Positions 491 to 25,306 of a stretch of DNA of 32,814 bases are shown in pieces. A program made the position numbers and the translations under genes. The notes below the pieces were generated by a model that was not told the origin of the DNA, did not search any database, and worked only from the letters and a program-made list of their open reading frames with translations. The stretch's first letter is position 1, and each line of letters begins with the position of its first letter. This DNA is from an uncultured Eubacterium sp. GTDB lineage: Bacteria > Bacillota > Clostridia > Lachnospirales > Lachnospiraceae. The DNA lies in assembly GCA_905236235.1 (NCBI GenBank), contig CAJOPA010000021.1, positions 1 to 32,814 of the forward strand. The letters run 5' to 3'.

Positions 491-563
<73 letters not shown>

Positions 564-565
564 GG

Positions 566-594
566 AAGCACTCTCAAAAGAGGGTGCTTTTTTC
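566..594 (+). terminator. Rho-independent terminator of tRNA cluster
   Basis: AAGCACTCTC-AAAA-GAGGGTGCTT followed by a T-tract. Confidence 0.85.
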
Positions 595-646: not shown

Positions 647-1336
647 ATGAAGGTATTTATTTTTAATCGTGATGAACGAGAAAGTAAGGAACTTTCCGAT
701 ATCATTAAGGAAATCAAAAGTGTTTCGCAGATTCGACGGTCCGAATGTTGTGATGCGACGATATGCCACCTTGGGGAAAATTTTTATGATGTGGTGTTTG
801 TCGATGTATTACCGGATGACGAAGAAGTTCTGCGGATGTTAAATATTCTCAATACGAATTATAAAAAACCTATTATCATTGTGACATCTGCAGATTATCA
901 TGGATTTAAAAGGGCGGCCGGCTATGCAGTTGATTATATTGCTAAGCCGTTTTCAAGAGAGGATATACATGCGTCATTGAATAAAGCTGCAGATATTTTT
1001 ACGGACTATCAATTTTCGGTTTTCTTTGATGGGAATGAGCATGTTCTGCATTATGGCGAAATAGAATTTCTTGAAGCAAAATTGCATAATTTGATTATTC
1101 ATACTCGTTCAAATCAAGAATATATGGTGCGAGAATCCATAAGTTCGTTTGTAGGAAAGCATAATCTTCCGTTTTTAGTTCGGTGCCATAAGAGTTTTTT
1201 CGTAAATATATATTATGTGCAAACGGTAGAGGACAATGCGATTTTAATGAGATCCGAAAATCGTGTTCCTCTCTCTCGTAAATATCGCAAAGAATCGTTT
1301 TATCCTGTTTTTAATCAAATTGTGGATCGTTATTGA
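647..1336 (+). CDS. Response regulator, receiver plus LytTR DNA-binding domain
   Basis: Receiver motifs (VVFVDVLPDDEEV, VTSA, YIAKPF) then LytTR-like C-terminus (HYGEIEFLEAKLHNLIIHTR...RCHKSFFVNIYYVQ). ATG at 647 has GGGGGAG upstream; the ORF track starts at GTG 635. Confidence 0.88.
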   Translation: MKVFIFNRDERESKELSDIIKEIKSVSQIRRSECCDATICHLGENFYDVVFVDVLPDDEEVLRMLNILNTNYKKPIIIVTSADYHGFKRAAGYAVDYIAKPFSREDIHASLNKAADIFTDYQFSVFFDGNEHVLHYGEIEFLEAKLHNLIIHTRSNQEYMVRESISSFVGKHNLPFLVRCHKSFFVNIYYVQTVEDNAILMRSENRVPLSRKYRKESFYPVFNQIVDRY

Positions 1337-1370
1337 ATGTTTGAGATATAGTGCAAACGCGCCTCTCCAT

Positions 1371-1402
1371 GACCTGTTATGTCATAAAAACGACCTGTTG
1401 TG
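1371..1402 (+). promoter_or_regulatory. Candidate LytTR operator: direct repeats GACCTGTTATG / GACCTGTTGTG
   Basis: Two 11-nt near-identical repeats (1371-1381, 1392-1402) with a 21-bp period, just upstream of a -35 box. Confidence 0.7.
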
Positions 1403-1411
1403 CCAAACCTA

Positions 1412-1440
1412 TTGAAAAATAAAAAGCCGTTTTTTATAAT
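1412..1440 (+). promoter_or_regulatory. Sigma70-type promoter
   Basis: TTGAAA (1412-1417), 17-bp spacer, TATAAT (1435-1440). Confidence 0.8.
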
Positions 1441-1494: not shown

Positions 1495-1539
1495 ATGAAA
1501 GTAAAAAAGTGTGGCGTTCTTACGCATATCCCGCGGTAA
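1495..1539 (+). CDS. Possible 14-aa leader/small peptide MKVKKCGVLTHIPR
   Basis: Strong SD-like AAGGGGAGAAGG 3 nt before ATG; lies between the LytTR-type promoter and the ABC operon. Not in the supplied ORF track because it is too short. Confidence 0.3.
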   Translation: MKVKKCGVLTHIPR

Positions 1540-1652
1540 CTTATGGTCAATATTCCTGCAGTGGGTATGTTGCAACGTATACGAGATAATATGTAGGCCC
1601 TTGGGTTGGACAGATAAAGAAAAACCGGATAGCGTATGGGGGCGCATATTTT

Positions 1653-3658
1653 ATGAATAAAAATGATTTTAGGTTATTGAAAGCAGCACCGGTAACGATG
1701 GGTATTTTATTGGCATTGTTATTAGGGGCTGTTATTTATTCCTTTTACCAAATGGTAGCTGTTCCGGCGGGTGGATCGCTCTATTTATCAGCCTTTTTGA
1801 CGTTTTCCCAGCGAACAAGTGTAGTATTCTTTTTGGGCTTTTCGTTTGCGACGTTTGAGTTTTTGTATTTGGAAAAAGCATCTCATTTACAGGAAACCCT
1901 GATCGGGAGGAAGGCCTATTGGGAAGGAAAGATATGGAAAAAAATCCTGCTAATGATGGGGATCTCCATTCTATTTTCCTTTGTACAATATGGGCTTTGG
2001 ATGATGGCATTTGCGTCTTTTGGTGTGCTTAAAGGGAAGGTTGCAGGATTCTTTTTGTTGGTTTTGATCATCAATTATATTTTGCCTTCGTTTGTGGCCG
2101 TGCTTTTTGGAGGCCTGTTGGCACTTCTCTTGGAGAACCGGATTGTGGCGTATTTGCTGTCGCTGATTTTCGTGTTTTTTATGCTTCCGTTTGCGAAGCT
2201 ATGGGCGGCAATGTTTGTGATCCGTACGGGAGAATCCTCTTTTGATCTTATGAGGATTGTGGATTTCTTTGATATCTGCGCACAAAACCTGGACAGTGCA
2301 ACCGATTTACAATATGGCGTTCCGATAGAGATTAGCCGGTGGTATCTGGCATTGTTCTGGATTGCATTTCTTGCCGGAGCTATATTCTTAAAAACTGCGC
2401 AGAGAAAATCGAAGCGCATCCTCATGGTGGTACCGCTTTTATGCTGCGTGGTTGGCATGGTCGGATTTTTAAGGATGGGTGGCGACAGTGTCGTTCGGTA
2501 TGACACACGACTGCACGGGATCATGACGGGGGATATTGAGACATACGATCTGCAGGATCCGCAGGAGGCGACATTTAGCGTTGATGCATATGACATGCAG
2601 ATTAAAGTCAGGTCGCGTCTGTATGCGGATGTGTCTATGACAATCTCTCAAACGGAAAAAACTGATACTTATTTGTTTACTTTATACCATGGGTATAAAG
2701 TAAACGAAGTTTTGGACGGCGAAGGAATGCTCTGTCTTATCAAAGAACCGGGGATTATCTGGATGTTACAGCTAATCTAAAGGAGGGCAATGAGGTTATC
2801 CGCGTGATCTATGAGGGAAGCGGAAACCGGTATTACAGCAACTATCAGGGAATCGCCCTTATGGGATACTTTGCATGGTATCCGAGGGCAGGGCATTTGC
2901 AGATATTTGAGTTGCAGTCAGCTCTTACCAGGACCAATATATCCGAAACGTCATCGAAGTTTCATCTTGCAGCGGATATCAAGGGAGAGTATATGACGAA
3001 CTTAAATGCCGTGGGCGAGGACGAATATGAGGGACAAACCAATGGCGTAACCGTTCTTTCGGGTTTGATGCAGCAGATGACGGTAGGGGATATCAGGTAT
3101 TGCTGTCCTGTGATGATTGCTGATGAAATTGCAAACTATGATTTAAAGGGGAGAGTTGCGGTCGCCGAGGATTATCTTGCCGGAGACTTGCAGGTGAATA
3201 CAGACTTGTGTATGACCGTTGCCTCGACGATCGCGGATTATAACGGAGCAAATGACGCATTTGCAGCGCTTGCGGACCATACGCTGATGAGAGAAGATGG
3301 GGCTTTGGTATGTGATATGATCATGTCGAAAGTGAAAGCGAGAGAAGGTACAAAAGAGCTTTATACGTGTCTGTCTGCTTATCCCTTTGCTATGGAAGGC
3401 CCGACAGAGGAAGTGGAAAAGCCGGCATATGAAGATGTTCTTTTCTTCATCCTGTACGACAGATCAGATGAAGAATACAATAGGGGCTTTCCGCTTGCGC
3501 ATGAAGCGTATTATCAGCTTTTCGAATACCAGGTCAACACCCTTGGCGAGAAGGCTGTATTTCAGGCCTGCTACGAGTATTTAAACAGTGATTCCGACGT
3601 GAATGAAGTGGATTTTCTTTATAATCTGGACGTGGATAATGGGGGGAAAACGGAATGA
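1653..3658 (+). pseudogene. ABC-2-type transporter permease with large extracytoplasmic domain, split by a 1-nt frameshift (ORFs 1653-2780 and 2804-3658)
   Basis: Re-reading with one extra A near 2726 gives continuous protein ...DGEGNALSYQRTGDYLDVTANLKEGNEVIRVIYEGSGNRYYSNYQG..., joining the two ORFs without a stop. Confidence 0.8.
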
Positions 3659-4491
3659 TACAAATACGGGAATTGGATTATACCATCAATAAAAAGCATA
3701 TATTAAAAAATCTTTCCATGGAGCTTAAAGAGGGCGTCTATGGACTGTTGGGGCCAAACGGTGCCGGTAAAACAACGCTGATGCGGTGCATGACGGGGAT
3801 CTATTCCCCGCCCAAAGGAAAGATCTTCTTTGAAGGAAAGGACATTTGCCAAAGCGACCAGTTGCAGAAAAACACCGGATATCTGCCGCAGCAATTTGGA
3901 ATGTACAAAGGACTGAAACTCTCGGAGATGCTGGAGATCTTTGCGGAGTTTAAGGATGTGCCGGGGCAGGAGTTGGAAAGTGAAGTCGCGCGGTGCCTGG
4001 AGATCGCCGGGCTTGAAGAGAGGCGGGAAGACAAGGTCAAAAGCCTATCCGGCGGGATGGTGCGACGCATGGGGATCGCGCAGGCGTTTATGGGAAATCC
4101 CAAGGTAGTAATCCTGGATGAACCGACCGCCGGGCTCGACCCGGAGGAGAGGCTTCGTTTTAAGCGTGTGATCCATGCGCAGAACGGGAAAGGCACGATC
4201 CTGCTTTCCACACATATCGTGGAAGATGTTGCCGCGCTGTGCGATCGTATTATCATTTTAAATAAGGGAGAGGTTGTCGCGGAAGGGACGCTTCAGGAGA
4301 TTGCGGACTTTGCAAAGGAGCGGGTGTATCTGGTGCCGGCAGAAAAAGAGGGCGAGCTTACAGGGGAATATATTGTCTCGCGGACGGAGCAGGAAACGCT
4401 GCGTGTCTTGTCAAACGACAAGCAACCTGGCGAATTGGACGAGCCAACCGTGGAGGATGGATACCTGTGTAAGATAAGGGGGTTTGCATGA
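3655..4491 (+). CDS. ABC transporter ATP-binding protein
   Basis: Walker A GPNGAGKTT, signature LSGGM, Walker B VVILDEPTAGLD; ATGA overlap with upstream gene. Confidence 0.96.
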   Translation: MIQIRELDYTINKKHILKNLSMELKEGVYGLLGPNGAGKTTLMRCMTGIYSPPKGKIFFEGKDICQSDQLQKNTGYLPQQFGMYKGLKLSEMLEIFAEFKDVPGQELESEVARCLEIAGLEERREDKVKSLSGGMVRRMGIAQAFMGNPKVVILDEPTAGLDPEERLRFKRVIHAQNGKGTILLSTHIVEDVAALCDRIIILNKGEVVAEGTLQEIADFAKERVYLVPAEKEGELTGEYIVSRTEQETLRVLSNDKQPGELDEPTVEDGYLCKIRGFA

Positions 4492-5162
4492 AAACCGTAA
4501 GGTTAACCATGTTGTCATTAAAGGCCGGCGGGAAAACTTATTTTTTGCCGCCGGTGATTGTCCTGGTCCTCGTGCCGGTTTTGTGCCGGCGTTTCATCAT
4601 CTATTATGGGGGAAGTCCGGAAGGATATATCGGGGCATCGAATATGATGCAGCAACTGATCCCGCTGTTGGCGGTCTGGTGGATCATGATCCTGACGCAG
4701 GAGATCATTGACGGGCCGGGCAGGGAGGTTTATCTGTTTTGTGATCCGGGATGCCGTAAAACGCTTCGGCAATGCGCGGTTATTTTTTTATGGTATCTGG
4801 TGCATATCGCGGTGGCGATGCTTCTTGTTTGTACCGTGATGCCTTCGGTGGGATGGATCTTTTTGGAACTTGCGCTGCAGAGCCTGTTTTTTGTGGGGTT
4901 CTATCTGCTCATCGGCGCGTTGCTTCGCAAAACCGGAGCGGCTCTTTTATTGCTGATGTTGTACTACGTGGTCATGGCGTATATGGACCAGACGACGAAG
5001 CCGTGGTTAAAGGCGATCAATGTGTATAATCTGGGGGAGATCGCAAATGCGCATATCCTCCGTACCCATAGTGTGTGGGTTGGCGCAGTCGGATTCGTCA
5101 TGGCGATCCTTGGGTGGTGGTTGCTGCGTCACCCTATCATGCATTCTTCTTCCAATGTTTAA
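4488..5162 (+). CDS. Hydrophobic ABC transporter membrane protein
   Basis: Multiple hydrophobic segments; ATGA overlap with the ATPase gene. Confidence 0.75.
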   Translation: MKTVRLTMLSLKAGGKTYFLPPVIVLVLVPVLCRRFIIYYGGSPEGYIGASNMMQQLIPLLAVWWIMILTQEIIDGPGREVYLFCDPGCRKTLRQCAVIFLWYLVHIAVAMLLVCTVMPSVGWIFLELALQSLFFVGFYLLIGALLRKTGAALLLLMLYYVVMAYMDQTTKPWLKAINVYNLGEIANAHILRTHSVWVGAVGFVMAILGWWLLRHPIMHSSSNV

Positions 5163-8028: not shown

Positions 8029-9126
8029 TCAGGAGTCTAATATATCCCGGATAGTTTTTTCAAATTCGCGAGAGGGCGGCAGCCCCATCTCTTCTTCGTA
8101 GCGGTTGCGCATCTCGGTATACAGATCTTTGGCTGAGGAGCCGCCGCGGTTCTTTTTGCGCAGCAGTACGCTTTGGCGGATGGCATTTTCGTTCAAGGGA
8201 TCGTTTAAAAGTATTTTGTGTAGCGTCAGTTCTGCAGCGTCATTATCATTATCCTGCATCTGCAATTCAAAAAGTTTAAACAGCATGCTCATATAGAGGC
8301 TGGAAAACCAGGCCTGGCGGTCAAAGAGCCAATCGTAGTAGCGATCCTCCAGATAGGCTCCACGATAGAGCATAACTCCCGTAAGCAGCTCCTCCTTGGT
8401 GGCGGTAGTATAACGGTCCGCGATCTCGGTGAAGGCAAACAGGTCGCAATCGATCTTCGTATAATCCAGGGTAAAGGAATCCTTGTAGCGCTGCAGCGCT
8501 TCGGGAAGGCCCGCCTCGGACAGGGCGTTTCGCAGATAGGAGCAGGTCACGCGAAAATGGTTGCCTGCCTTCTCCGCGTCCTCGGCATCCGGCCAAAGGG
8601 TATCGATAAGAAAATCCCGGGTACGGGGTTTCTTTTCACTATCGATCAAAAGTGCAAAAAGTTCCTCCGCCTTGGCGGTCCGAAACTTGATGGGCAGGTC
8701 GGCGCCCTCGGGGATACATTGCAAAGAGCCGAGACATTGCACGTGTAATTTTTTCAAAAAAACTTGTCGAACATCAAGAAGATGCACGAGTTCGTTGTGA
8801 ATATCTTCGTATGAAAAAGGTTTTAAAATATAGCCGTCGGCATGCACGCGAAAGGCATTGAGCGCATACTGATCGTAGGCCGTCAGGAAAATAATGGAGA
8901 TGGACGGACGGATCTCGCGCAGCTTTTGGGCCAGGGTAAGGCCGTTCATATGCGGCATTTCCATGTCCAAAAAAGCAAGATTGTATTCCTTGGTCCGGGC
9001 ATCGGAAAGCGCCTCTTCGGGGTTTGTGAAGGTGGTCAAGGACAGGACGCCGGGTTCGTTTTCCAAAAGACGGGAAAGCCGGGAAAGGGATCCGTGTTCG
9101 TCGTCAACAGCGAGGACATGAAACAT
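8029..9126 (-). CDS. Response regulator with SARP/BTAD-type output domain
   Basis: Receiver (VLAVDDEHG, LAFLDMEMPHMNG, YILKPF) then winged-helix plus BTAD-like C-terminus (LWPDAEDAEKAGNHFRVTCSYLRNAL...). Confidence 0.88.
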   Translation of the reverse strand: MFHVLAVDDEHGSLSRLSRLLENEPGVLSLTTFTNPEEALSDARTKEYNLAFLDMEMPHMNGLTLAQKLREIRPSISIIFLTAYDQYALNAFRVHADGYILKPFSYEDIHNELVHLLDVRQVFLKKLHVQCLGSLQCIPEGADLPIKFRTAKAEELFALLIDSEKKPRTRDFLIDTLWPDAEDAEKAGNHFRVTCSYLRNALSEAGLPEALQRYKDSFTLDYTKIDCDLFAFTEIADRYTTATKEELLTGVMLYRGAYLEDRYYDWLFDRQAWFSSLYMSMLFKLFELQMQDNDNDAAELTLHKILLNDPLNENAIRQSVLLRKKNRGGSSAKDLYTEMRNRYEEEMGLPPSREFEKTIRDILDS

Positions 9127-19548: not shown

Positions 19549-19622
19549 CGATGCGTGGCTCAGCTTGGTAGAGCGCTGCGTTCGGGACGCAGAGGTCGCA
19601 GGTTCAAATCCTGTCGCATCGA
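19549..19622 (+). tRNA. tRNA-Pro (CGG)
   Basis: Acceptor CGATGCG/CGCATCG; anticodon CGG in TTCGGGA; T-arm GGTTCAAATCC. Confidence 0.93.
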
Positions 19623-19663
19623 TAGCAAAAAAGGACATCCGGTTGGATGTCCTTTTTTGCTAT
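19622..19663. terminator. Near-perfect bidirectional terminator
   Basis: ATAGCAAAAAAGGACATCC-GGTT-GGATGTCCTTTTTTGCTAT. Confidence 0.92.
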
Positions 19664-19714
19664 CATAACTTCAGTCTTTAAACCTGCGCCCTCTAGCGTC
19701 CCGGGCGCACGCGT
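19646..19714 (+). repeat. 69-bp direct repeat, copy 1
   Basis: GATGTCCTTTTTTGCTATCATAACTTCAGTCTTTAAACCTGCGCCCTCTAGCGTCCCGGGCGCACGCGT; 68/69 identical to 19814-19882. Confidence 0.97.
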
Positions 19715-19729
19715 TCGAGGACGCATGCA

Positions 19730-19767
19730 AGAAGTACTAGCCGAGCTTGCGAGGCTTAGTACTTCTG
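19730..19767. repeat. Inverted repeat between the two direct repeats
   Basis: AGAAGTACTAGCC ... GGCTTAGTACTTCT, one bulge. Confidence 0.85.
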
Positions 19768-19813
19768 TATCCGGAGAGAGCGAAGCGAGCGGAGGTGAGG
19801 TCGCAGGGGAGGA

Positions 19814-19882
19814 GATGTCCTTTTTTGCTATCATAACTTCAGTCTTTAAACCTGCGCCCTCTAGCGACCCGGGCGCACGCGT
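19814..19882 (+). repeat. 69-bp direct repeat, copy 2
   Basis: One substitution versus copy 1 (19699 T vs 19867 A); offset 168 bp. Confidence 0.97.
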
Positions 19883-19938
19883 GAGGGAGCGGGGTTGCGG
19901 GGCGCAGAGGCTCTTTTGATCACATTCATGAAGTTTGG

Positions 19939-19966
19939 TTGATTTTGATATTAGAATGATTATAAT
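19939..19966 (+). promoter_or_regulatory. Promoter for DUF4160/DUF2442 pair
   Basis: TTGATT, 16 bp, TATAAT. Confidence 0.5.
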
Positions 19967-20023
19967 GAAGGTAGAAATCAAGGTCAAAGCGGTTCTATGA
20001 AACCAGAGAGGAGTATGCTGATA

Positions 20024-20290
20024 ATGCCGGAAATATCCAGATTCTATGGGATAGTTATTAAGATGATTTTTAATGATAATGAAAAACATCACAAACCGCA
20101 TGTCCATGTTTATTTCGGAGAATATGAGGCGTCCGTGGGTCTGGATGGAGAAGTGCTGGACGGGAAATTGCCAATAAAGCAATATCGTATGTTAAGCGGT
20201 TGGATGGCACTTCATGAAGACGAATTGTATGCGGCGTGGAACAATGCAGTTCGACAAATGCCATTTGATAAGATTGATCCTCTTCAGTAA
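20024..20290 (+). CDS. DUF4160 family protein
   Basis: MPEISRFYGIVIKMIFNDNEKHHKPHVHVYFGEYEASV...GKLP is the recognisable DUF4160 pattern; RBS GAGGAG. Confidence 0.85.
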   Translation: MPEISRFYGIVIKMIFNDNEKHHKPHVHVYFGEYEASVGLDGEVLDGKLPIKQYRMLSGWMALHEDELYAAWNNAVRQMPFDKIDPLQ

Positions 20291-20307
20291 TAAGGAGGTG
20301 TTGTGCA

Positions 20308-20628
20308 ATGTTTTTTGTTGATGGATACGTGTGTGGGGGAATGCCCACAGAACCACTGAAAGTGATTCATATTAAAGTTCTATCGGATATGATGATGCTT
20401 ATAGCGTTCAACAATGGAGAAACACGCCTTTTTGATGCGACAATATTGTCTGGCGCTGTCTTTTCGGATCTGCAAAATGAGGAAGTATTCCGCAGTGCCG
20501 ATATAGATCATGGAATCGTTGTATGGAAGGATGGCGAAATTGATTGTGCGCCGGAGTATATGTACGAACACAGCTTTTCATATGAAAACACTTCGTTAAT
20601 AGGAGAAAAAATTCGTATCGTCGGATGA
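20308..20628 (+). CDS. DUF2442 family protein
   Basis: IAFNNGETRLFDATIL...VFSDLQNEEVFRSADIDHGIVVWKDGEIDCAPEYMYE matches the DUF2442 pattern; RBS AAGGAGG. Confidence 0.8.
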   Translation: MFFVDGYVCGGMPTEPLKVIHIKVLSDMMMLIAFNNGETRLFDATILSGAVFSDLQNEEVFRSADIDHGIVVWKDGEIDCAPEYMYEHSFSYENTSLIGEKIRIVG

Positions 20629-22078: not shown

Positions 22079-22266
22079 ACACAGGTGCCCATGGACGATG
22101 CCCGCTTTAGGCGCGCGTTGTCGGCATGGGAGAATAGGGAACTCGGTGAGAATCCGAGACGAAGCCGTCACTGTGTACCGGAGCGCTGCATAACCACCGG
22201 CCCGTCAGAGCGGACCCCGGGAAGGGTGCAGAGAGCGAAGAAGGAAGTCAGGAGACCTGCCTGTGT
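22079..22266 (+). ncRNA. Cobalamin riboswitch aptamer
   Basis: ACAGGTGCCC ... GGGAACTCGGTGAGAATCCGAGACGAAGCCGTCACTGTGTA ... GAAGTCAGGAGACCTGCCTGTG (B12-box features). Confidence 0.93.
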
Positions 22267-22348
22267 GGGAAACGTTTGTTGCCGCGGTCCTCGGCATTAC
22301 GTTGGGTGATCCCTTTTGATTGCACAAATCAAAGGGTTGCCATAAATG

Positions 22349-22370
22349 GGCCGCAAAAGCGGTCTTTTTT
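22349..22370 (+). terminator. Riboswitch expression-platform terminator
   Basis: GGCCGC-AAAA-GCGGTC-TTTTTT; preceded by CCCTTTTGATT...AATCAAAGGG hairpin (22311-22336). Confidence 0.75.
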
Positions 22371-22417
22371 ATGTCGGCTTGCGCCGACGGAATCATTTTA
22401 AGAAAGGGATGAAAAGA

Positions 22418-23449
22418 ATGAAGAAGAATTGGTTAAGTATGTTGCTTGTGCTTGCCATGACGGCATCTTTGTTTGCCGGCTGCGGAAATGCTGCAGACGA
22501 GACACAGGATGTTGCGCAGGAGAGCGGCGCGGCGACGACAGAGGAAGCACAGGAAGGAAACGACACGGCTTCTGCAGATGCAGCCATCACCGTGACGGAC
22601 ATGAGCGGAGCAACCATTACGCTCTCTGAGCCCGCAACGCGGATCGTTGCCCTGACGGCAGCGGATTGTGAGATCCTGTATGCGCTTGGTGCAGGGGATG
22701 CACTTGTCGGCCGCGGAGAGTATTGCGATTATCCGGCAGAGGTACTGGACGTGGAAGCTGTACAGTCCGGCGCGGACACCAATATTGAGCAGATCATCGC
22801 ACTTGAGCCGCAGGTTGTGCTTATGGGCACCATGGCACAGACCGAGGAGCAGGTACAGGCTTTAAGAGATGCCGGGATTGAGGTTGTTGTCAGTGATGCA
22901 CAGGATATCGAGGGTGTTTATACCGCCATTGAGATGATCGGTGCACTGATGGCAAAGGATGCCGAGGCTGAGGCGCTTGTAAGCAGCATGAAGGCTACTT
23001 TTGATGAGCTGGCAGAAAAGTCCACGGGTGACGGTTCCGAAACCGTATACTTTGAGGTTTCTCCGTTGGAGTATGGTCTGTGGGCAGCCGGCAGCGGCAC
23101 CTTTATGGATGAGATCGCAACCATGCTCGGACTGACCAACGCCTTCGCAGATGTGGAAGGCTGGGGCGAGATCTCCGAGGAGCAGGTGATCGAGCGTGAT
23201 CCGGATTATATCGTGACCATCAGCATGTACTTTGGCGAAGGTCCCACACCGGTAGAGGAGATCCTCTCCAGAAGCGGTTGGGAAAATGTAGCAGCCGTAG
23301 CCAATGAAAAGATCTTAAACCTGCAGGACAATGAGCTGTCCAGACCGGGTCCGAGACTTGCGGACGGCGCACAAATGTTGTACGATTTTGTATATGGCAG
23401 TGCGTCCGATGAGGCGCAGGAAGCCGAAGAGGCTGATGATGCGGCATAG
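22418..23449 (+). CDS. btuF: ABC transporter substrate-binding lipoprotein (BtuF-like)
   Basis: Lipobox SLFAGCGN; periplasmic binding protein pattern (ATRIVALTAADCEILYALGAGDALVGR); riboswitch-controlled. Confidence 0.88.
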   Translation: MKKNWLSMLLVLAMTASLFAGCGNAADETQDVAQESGAATTEEAQEGNDTASADAAITVTDMSGATITLSEPATRIVALTAADCEILYALGAGDALVGRGEYCDYPAEVLDVEAVQSGADTNIEQIIALEPQVVLMGTMAQTEEQVQALRDAGIEVVVSDAQDIEGVYTAIEMIGALMAKDAEAEALVSSMKATFDELAEKSTGDGSETVYFEVSPLEYGLWAAGSGTFMDEIATMLGLTNAFADVEGWGEISEEQVIERDPDYIVTISMYFGEGPTPVEEILSRSGWENVAAVANEKILNLQDNELSRPGPRLADGAQMLYDFVYGSASDEAQEAEEADDAA

Positions 23450-23510
23450 GCGCGATCGCAGAGCCTGATGCGGTATCGATCCGCGAAATAAGACAGACAG
23501 GAGCGCAAAA

Positions 23511-24548
23511 ATGAAAAGATCCGGCGGTTTTACAATACGAACCCGATTGATTTTGATGCTCCTTACTGTTGCGGTATTTTTATTATGTATGTGTGTCGGT
23601 AGTGTTACCATTCCGCTCGGGGAGACCGTGGAGGTCCTCCGCAATGCGGCGCGCGGACTTGCGCAGTCCGCGGAGGGTAACGCTGCCGATATTTTATTGT
23701 CCGTGCGCATCCCCCGCGTCTTATGTGTGGCGCTGGTGGGGGCGGCCCTGTCCATCAGCGGTGTAGTCATGCAGGGGTTGTTAAAAAATCCTTTGGCAGA
23801 CGGCTCCACCATGGGTGTATCGGCGGCGGCAAGCCTGGGGGCGGTGGTTTCCATGGCATTCGGCATCACGCTTCCGGCGCTTCCTTTATCCGGCACCATG
23901 GGCATGGCGATCCTGTTTGCATTTTTATCGCTCCTGTTGATCCTTTCCCTGGCCTATCGACTGGATGCGTCGCTCTCGACGAATACGATCATCCTGATCG
24001 GTGTGATTTTTTCCATGTTTGTCAGTTCGATTTCGAATCTCATCATTACCTTTGCAGGGGAAAAGGTCAAGACCATTACGTTTTGGACGTTGGGATCTTT
24101 GCAGGGGAGCAGTTACAAAAATGCCTGGATTCTGTTTGTTTTTCTTGTGATCTGCGGGGGGATCATGCTGACGATGGCCGAGGAGCTTAATGCCTTTGCT
24201 GTGGGCGAGGATAATGCCAGGACCATCGGCGTTAACGTGCGCAGGGTCAAGCTTCTTGCACTTATCAGCGTCAGCATTTTGGTAGGCGTCTGCGTATCCA
24301 TCGGCGGCAACATTGCTTTTGTCGGCCTGGCCACACCGCACATTCTGCGGCCTTTTACCGGCGCGAATCATAAACGACTGCTTCCGGCATCTTTATACGG
24401 TGGGGCGATCTTTTTGATGCTGGCGGACCTTGTGGGACGGGTGATCCTGCGCCCCAGGGAGCTTCCGATCGGCGTGGTGACCTCCATGGTGGGAACGCTG
24501 GTATTTTTGAGCGTCTTTTATAAGGGAAGAAAGGGGGCAAAAGAATGA
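23511..24548 (+). CDS. btuC: FecCD-family permease (BtuC-like)
   Basis: RIPRVLCVALVGAALSISGVVMQGLLKNPLADGSTMGVSAAASLG and downstream GLATPHILR motif. Confidence 0.95.
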   Translation: MKRSGGFTIRTRLILMLLTVAVFLLCMCVGSVTIPLGETVEVLRNAARGLAQSAEGNAADILLSVRIPRVLCVALVGAALSISGVVMQGLLKNPLADGSTMGVSAAASLGAVVSMAFGITLPALPLSGTMGMAILFAFLSLLLILSLAYRLDASLSTNTIILIGVIFSMFVSSISNLIITFAGEKVKTITFWTLGSLQGSSYKNAWILFVFLVICGGIMLTMAEELNAFAVGEDNARTIGVNVRRVKLLALISVSILVGVCVSIGGNIAFVGLATPHILRPFTGANHKRLLPASLYGGAIFLMLADLVGRVILRPRELPIGVVTSMVGTLVFLSVFYKGRKGAKE

Positions 24549-25306
24549 TCGAAGTGAAGGATCTGTCGGTTGCCTTCGGGGAGCGCAGCGTGTTGCGCTC
24601 GGTTTCTTTCCGTGTGGAGGACGATGACTGGCTCATGATCGTGGGGCCGAACGGCGCAGGGAAATCTACCATTGTAAACGCGCTTTCCAAAGGGGTATAC
24701 TATCAGGGAGAGATCCGGGTGGACGGGCAGGATATTGCCGAGATGAAGCCCAGGGCGCTGGCGCACAAGATCGGCGTGCTCAGGCAGAGTCATTCGGTGG
24801 GATACGGGTTCCTCACGGAGGAAGTGATCCGCCTGGGATGCTACAGCCATCGCACCCTGTTTTCCGCGGGCGAAAAGGACAGTGAAAAATGTTTTCGCGA
24901 AGCGGTGGAAGCGACGGGGATGGAGCCGTATCTCGCACAGCCCGTGACCACGCTTTCCGGAGGTGAGATGCAAAGAGCATTCCTTGCGCAACTTTTTGCG
25001 CAGGATCCGGAGATGCTGATTTTGGATGAGCCGACGAATCATCTGGATCTGCGCTACCAAAAGCAGATCTTTGCCCTGGTGGAGGCGTGGCGCAAGAAAA
25101 AGAAAGGCGCCGTGATCTCCGTGGTTCATGATCTCAGCATGGCGCGGTTGTACGGGACGAAAGTCCTTTTGTTGGACGCCGGGCAAGTGGTTGCCTGCGG
25201 AGAAAAGGAAGAGGTGCTCGCTCCGCAGTATATCAATCGGGTCTACGATATGGACGTGGGCGCCTGGATGCGTAATCTTTATGAAATCTGGAAAGAAGGG
25301 GAATAA
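24545..25306 (+). CDS. btuD: ABC transporter ATP-binding protein (BtuD-like)
   Basis: GPNGAGKST, LSGGEMQRAFLA, LILDEPTNHLD; ATGA overlap with permease. Confidence 0.95.
   Translation: MIEVKDLSVAFGERSVLRSVSFRVEDDDWLMIVGPNGAGKSTIVNALSKGVYYQGEIRVDGQDIAEMKPRALAHKIGVLRQSHSVGYGFLTEEVIRLGCYSHRTLFSAGEKDSEKCFREAVEATGMEPYLAQPVTTLSGGEMQRAFLAQLFAQDPEMLILDEPTNHLDLRYQKQIFALVEAWRKKKKGAVISVVHDLSMARLYGTKVLLLDAGQVVACGEKEEVLAPQYINRVYDMDVGAWMRNLYEIWKEGE

Follow-up and report, generated by a model that had tools for sequence, protein, structure and literature searches.

Which protein acts on the direct repeats that stand in front of an ABC transporter operon in an uncultured Eubacterium sp. of the Lachnospiraceae, and how is that protein controlled? 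The stretch of DNA analysed here (the window, 32,814 nucleotides) carries two operator half-sites on the plus strand, GACCTGTTATG at 1371-1381 and GACCTGTTGTG at 1392-1402, which recur with a 21-bp period and differ at 1 of 11 positions. Within them lie the LytTR 9-mers ACCTGTTAT (1372-1380) and ACCTGTTGT (1393-1401), 12 bp apart. The second 11-mer is followed after 9 bp (1403-1411), or 10 bp when counted from the second 9-mer, by the promoter TTGAAA-17-TATAAT (1412-1440, plus strand; -35 at 1412-1417 and -10 at 1435-1440), the whole layout reading ACCTGTTAT-12 bp-ACCTGTTGT-10 bp-TTGAAA-17-TATAAT. The original prediction had described these repeats, their period and their distance to the promoter correctly to the base, and had read them as a LytTR operator.

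The specific repeat pattern was observed once in the window and in none of 100 shuffles. A generic search, for any 11-mer repeated with a period of 20-22 bp and placed 7-11 bp from a strong promoter, returned only this site in the real window and none across 60 dinucleotide-shuffled windows, some 2 Mb in total. A chance origin of the repeats is excluded by these shuffles together with a paralogous copy described below. An RNA element in the 5' leader of the operon was also considered and rejected (z = -0.02; no Rfam match there). Elsewhere in the window, a cobalamin riboswitch (22092-22278; Rfam, 73.7 bits) precedes a substrate-binding protein/permease/ATPase operon (22346-25306), and at 19604-20182 two copies of a stretch encoding FFAIITSVFKPAPSS lie inside some 250 bp, immediately ahead of a gene pair (19997-20628) which we take to resemble small toxin-antitoxin-like families.

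Published LytTR promoters follow the layout ACCxxTTAx-12 bp-ACCxxTTxx, mostly 10 bp upstream of the -35, and their repeats, among them ACCTCTTAT, ACCAGTTAT and ACCTTTTGT, are mostly 12 bp apart (PMC6193735). The window site has the two ~9-bp direct repeats, 11-13 bp apart and ~10 bp upstream of the -35, of this standard, and since geometry, repeat sequence and -35 distance all match the published promoters, its layout is the standard LytTR one (PMC6193735). Judged on its sequence, the predicted site at 1371-1402 is thus a genuine LytTR-type operator. The VirR boxes of Clostridium perfringens are similar in combining a LytTR regulator with two imperfect direct repeats immediately upstream of the -35; they have a ~50-bp core and several unlinked targets, but differ from the window site in repeat sequence, and VirR is activated by a kinase, VirS (PMC2838878).

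The spacing is also that of the HdrRM/BrsRM LytTR regulatory systems (LRS) of Streptococcus mutans, in which ACCxxTTAx-12 bp-ACCxxTTAx lies 8-10 bp upstream of the -35 and HdrR and BrsR activate bacteriocin operons (PMC6193735). The window locus could on this basis be an LRS, with its regulator held by a membrane inhibitor and autoregulating positively through the repeats. Repeat spacing and -35 distance are exactly those of LRS promoters; however, the pairing with a membrane inhibitor and the autoregulation that mark LRS regulators (PMC6193735) are not seen at the window locus, where no membrane-inhibitor gene follows the regulator gene, the encoded protein includes a receiver-like domain, and the repeats come after the regulator gene and not in front. 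No operator copy was seen ahead of the regulator gene, and a terminator-like hairpin (563-592, plus strand) separates it from tRNA-Phe. LRS identity was rejected on this wrong gene order, and we regard such a system here as highly improbable.

The original prediction had proposed a search for the repeats at related operons and in the rest of the genome, and within the genome a single second locus emerged. A permease search turned up, in this genome, a paralogue of the operon on contig C36 (G000:C36, L037, 9283-13501, minus strand), with the upstream region CCTCTCTTATGACCTGTTACGTCGAAAAAACGACCTGTTGTGCCAAAGGTATTGACT, in which the repeats, their 21-bp period and the 9 bp to the -35 are all as in the window. 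Its promoter, TTGACT-17-TATTCA, keeps the 17-bp spacer of the window promoter and has a poor -10. A scan of the genome (1.6 Mb) with the pattern and one extra degeneracy returned exactly two zero-mismatch sites, those of the window and of C36, and the sole mismatched match (3 mismatches) was no better than what the reversed-pattern control gave. Between the two operons, 54 of 62 aligned bases (87%) are identical over 1354-1415 (plus strand), a block that ends in the -35. The shared coding genes, in comparison, are 33-61% identical in protein and 39-44% identical at third codon positions, and against a background of 43% the block identity has a binomial P of about 7e-13. Mere inheritance with a duplicated operon was therefore rejected: since neutral sites are near saturation while the block stays 87% identical, the operator has been maintained by selection. 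Gene conversion restricted to 1354-1415 would be a possible, though less simple, explanation. The lack of conserved repeats and spacing by which the original prediction was to be refuted was thus not observed, as both are conserved at this diverged paralogue. A tRNA-Ala gene lies ~195 bp upstream of the second operator, and the C36 operon end adjoins tRNA-Leu; the window copy likewise follows a tRNA cluster, and the module may have been inserted at sites flanked by tRNA genes.

As originally predicted, a LytTR gene stands next to the operon. Its product (647-1336, plus strand) is a response-regulator-like protein with a LytTR DNA-binding domain encoded at 1040-1294 (Pfam LytTR, 2.6e-15), and its Response_reg match falls below that model's cut-off. 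No other LytTR protein was detected in the genome, and a protein scan of the genome_contigs collection with it as query gave no match. The assembly is about 87% complete, and for this reason it may lack a further LytTR gene or the gene of a partner kinase. We consider it very probable, from the sequence and the layout, that this adjacent protein binds the repeats at 1371-1402. Because no regulator gene lies beside the C36 operon, and 647-1336 is the sole LytTR protein, we infer that it would also act there in trans. A different kind of regulator might by coincidence use 21-bp direct repeats and bind this site instead: the half-site, GACCTGTTRTGYC, is longer than a LytTR 9-mer, and a second response regulator, with a receiver and a BTAD output domain and no adjoining kinase, is encoded at 8029-9126 on the minus strand. 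The adjoining LytTR gene, the layout shared with published LytTR promoters (PMC6193735) and the LytTR/kinase genes found beside related operators in other species all argue against this, and we consider it very unlikely.

How the regulator receives its signal is a separate matter, and here the receiver domain is informative. An ungapped N-terminal alignment to the solved receiver 6m8o, together with an alignment of nine relatives, placed N7 and R8 at the positions of both acidic Mg2+-binding residues, while the phospho-acceptor D53, the Thr and K100 remain in place. Not all of the five catalytic residues of a phosphorylated response regulator (acidic pair, Asp, Thr/Ser, Lys) are thus present, and since the acidic pair is lost the domain is a pseudo-receiver by the published definition (PMC12632262). 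In having a receiver fold that lacks catalytic residues, the protein resembles the atypical response regulators described there. A LytTR output domain sets it apart, as the best-known regulators with pseudo-receivers have other output classes.

No kinase gene adjoins the regulator or lies anywhere in the window, and the earlier remark that no histidine kinase was visible held for the whole window. Nearly all of the LytTR regulators sampled, by contrast, adjoin a GHKL-type kinase. The protein may simply need none, as a receiver that has lost its acidic pair would suggest; with both metal-binding acids missing, a dedicated kinase is probably not required. The same pair is also lost (A, T) in the only other module-linked regulator that lacks a nearby kinase (G146). 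Acidic residues are kept in 8 of 8 module- or operator-linked regulators with a kinase and lost in 2 of 2 without one (Fisher P = 0.02, from a small sample of species that are not independent), a trend that fits kinase independence.

The alternative is an ordinary phosphorylated regulator whose kinase lies elsewhere, with the same action at the operator and a two-component input, perhaps a peptide. The intact Asp, Thr and Lys would allow for it, as would the habitual pairing of LytTR regulators with GHKL kinases, and a strong AgrC-type GHKL kinase is encoded on contig C115, close to the contig end, its neighbour falling beyond that end; this kinase is a possible partner in trans. The two replaced acids, which make the domain a pseudo-receiver (PMC12632262), and the lack of any adjoining kinase count against it. 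AgrB was not found in the genome. Overall, we find a phosphorylated regulator rather unlikely.

AgrA and the Agr promoters of the Staphylococcus aureus type share with the window a REC-LytTR regulator and a pair of 9-bp direct repeats, spaced by 12 bp and close to the -35 on its upstream side. A standard Agr locus keeps agrB, agrD, agrC and agrA together, whereas the window regulator has no kinase, AgrB or AgrD beside it, its receiver lacks the acidic pair, and its repeats stand downstream of the regulator gene. It would be best described as a pseudo-receiver version of the AgrA-like regulators.

The ABC transporter operon behind the promoter was present as the original prediction had it in its transporter part, but its first gene proved to be the remnant of a secreted-peptide gene, and its permease gene is frameshifted. 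Three-frame translation of 1430-1680 beside the C36 copy located this remnant at 1495-1589 (plus strand), with a start codon and ribosome site at 1495 (MKVKK...). Its C-terminal part, ...YAYPAVTYGQYSCSGYVATYTR, lies in another frame, and the tail, ...YGQYSCSGYVATYTR, resembles the C36 ending ...YNYSGCYGYAGIYTY*. The C36 peptide gene keeps its hydrophobic signal and mature parts and has lost its start. There follow, all on the plus strand, a permease with a large extracytoplasmic domain (1653-3658), whose gene is left as two ORFs, 1653-2780 and 2804-3658, by a frameshift near 2723-2726; an ABC transporter ATPase (3655-4491; Pfam ABC_tran, 2.2e-31); and, at the end of the operon, an ORF for a second membrane protein of the transporter (4488-5162), 33% identical to its C36 paralogue. 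The C36 permease gene carries an in-frame stop.

Since both target operons are damaged or misassembled, the functional state of the system in this genome is uncertain. Against an active regulon, the damaged downstream genes may mean either a relic or assembly errors. Were it a decaying relic, operator and regulator would persist over two operons already non-functional, and nothing useful would remain in this strain. The truncated, out-of-frame peptide gene and frameshifted permease of the window, the lost start and in-frame stop of C36, and the lack of a homologous permease in the sampled genomes of the same genus would all be expected of decay. Yet neither copy shows damage to its ATPase gene or to that of the second membrane protein, the ATPase is 80% conserved at second positions against 43% at third positions, the regulator gene and the operator block are also intact, and some of the breaks may be assembly errors. 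A relic is a serious possibility, albeit a less than even one.

As a family, these secreted-protein/ABC modules match no Pfam or NCBIfam model. In a relative, the secreted protein is predicted as a beta-sandwich (pLDDT 84), with a Foldseek likeness to PirA and other beta-sandwich proteins (TM about 0.6) that is modest and was given no weight as to function, and the permease as transmembrane helices with an ectodomain whose fold is similar to that of M1 aminopeptidases (Foldseek E 5e-9). The HExxH zinc motif that an M1 aminopeptidase carries in this domain is absent in the window and C36 permeases, and the sole match among relatives, HEYHH in L095, lies near the C-terminus. The ectodomain is thus, as modelled, M1-peptidase-like in fold only and predicted to be catalytically dead. 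The gene order of the module (small secreted protein, ~600-aa membrane protein, ATPase) presumably resembles that of Lactococcin 972-type loci. A bacteriocin locus of that type was rejected as no Pfam or NCBIfam model of it matched the module proteins, and the M1-like ectodomain is a further difference. An anti-phage defence role was likewise rejected, with only generic ATPase matches. A bacteriocin-like or peptide-export function is suggested by analogy, from the gene order and from the Agr linkage of relatives rather than from the window locus.

These relatives were found in 20 other genomes; including this one, the permease and ATPase operon type occurs in 21 of 397 sampled Lachnospiraceae genomes, and in most copies the gene immediately ahead of the permease gene encodes a small protein with a signal peptide. 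Complete agr loci (LytTR regulator, GHKL kinase, AgrB and AgrD-like peptide) surround the module in G059, G355 and G348, and AgrB and an AgrD-like peptide are also present in G430. The promoters of these three complete loci have repeats with a 20-22-bp period: TTTTCTGCA/TATTCTGCA in G059, a perfect AAATTCTGC repeat in G348, and ACCATTCGT-13-ACATTTCGT-10-TTGACA-17-TAAAAT in G355. The last lies between the LytTR/GHKL pair and agrD-agrB-secreted protein-permease, and shares the flank GTGCCAAACGTATTGA with the window site. A search with this flank led to repeat-plus-promoter sites on a second G355 contig, in G400 (beside a LytTR/HK pair) and in G055; one of the four extra matches among family genomes (G312) was rejected as chance, lying inside a coding gene. 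Two other Clostridia have such sites, L116 (uncultured Clostridia, beside LytTR/HK) and L118. Variants of the repeats extend to LytTR/kinase loci of other species. Among named genomes, a broad scan with the pattern yielded 8 exact matches against about 7.5 expected by our own estimate, and only 3 of the 8 (L116, L118 and L120) had the full architecture. No convincing repeat was observed in the region scanned at the G146, G430 and G494 loci, which have the same operon type.

Two further arrangements were noticed in these genomes. In G355, a second operator of the same type (L110, G355:C61, 6380-6479, minus strand), with GTTGTGCAA repeats and TTGAAA...TATAAT, is followed at some distance by a patatin-like gene; the genome also has a complete agr locus, and the operator is likely to be another member of the G355 regulon. 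In G368, two secreted-protein/permease modules stand in tandem (L087, G368:C7, 6378-13606), which suggests that the secreted protein was duplicated locally and diversified.

We propose that a dimer of 647-1336 would bind both half-sites on one helix face just upstream of the -35, and would activate rather than repress the promoter, driving the small secreted peptide, the permease with its dead M1-like ectodomain, the ATPase and the second membrane protein. Acting in trans on the near-identical C36 operator, it would control a two-operon regulon, probably independently of a kinase. We consider this model as a whole probable. The locus would then be a reduced form of the Agr-linked secreted-protein/ABC loci of other Lachnospiraceae. 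More tentatively, it may descend from an Agr circuit by loss of the kinase gene and the signal genes, leaving a kinase-independent LytTR pseudo-response regulator over a dispersed secreted-protein/ABC regulon, with input through the degenerate receiver or the transporter.

The system is a known kind of switch, and what is new in it is the pseudo-receiver, the lack of an adjoining kinase, the two operons in trans and the unfamiliar secreted-protein/ABC module. With one regulator, two operators and no obvious kinase, it lends itself to testing what controls a LytTR regulator whose receiver is degenerate. The secreted-protein/ABC modules of the Lachnospiraceae, several of which lie within Agr loci, may represent a hitherto undescribed class of proteins that gut bacteria secrete under quorum control.
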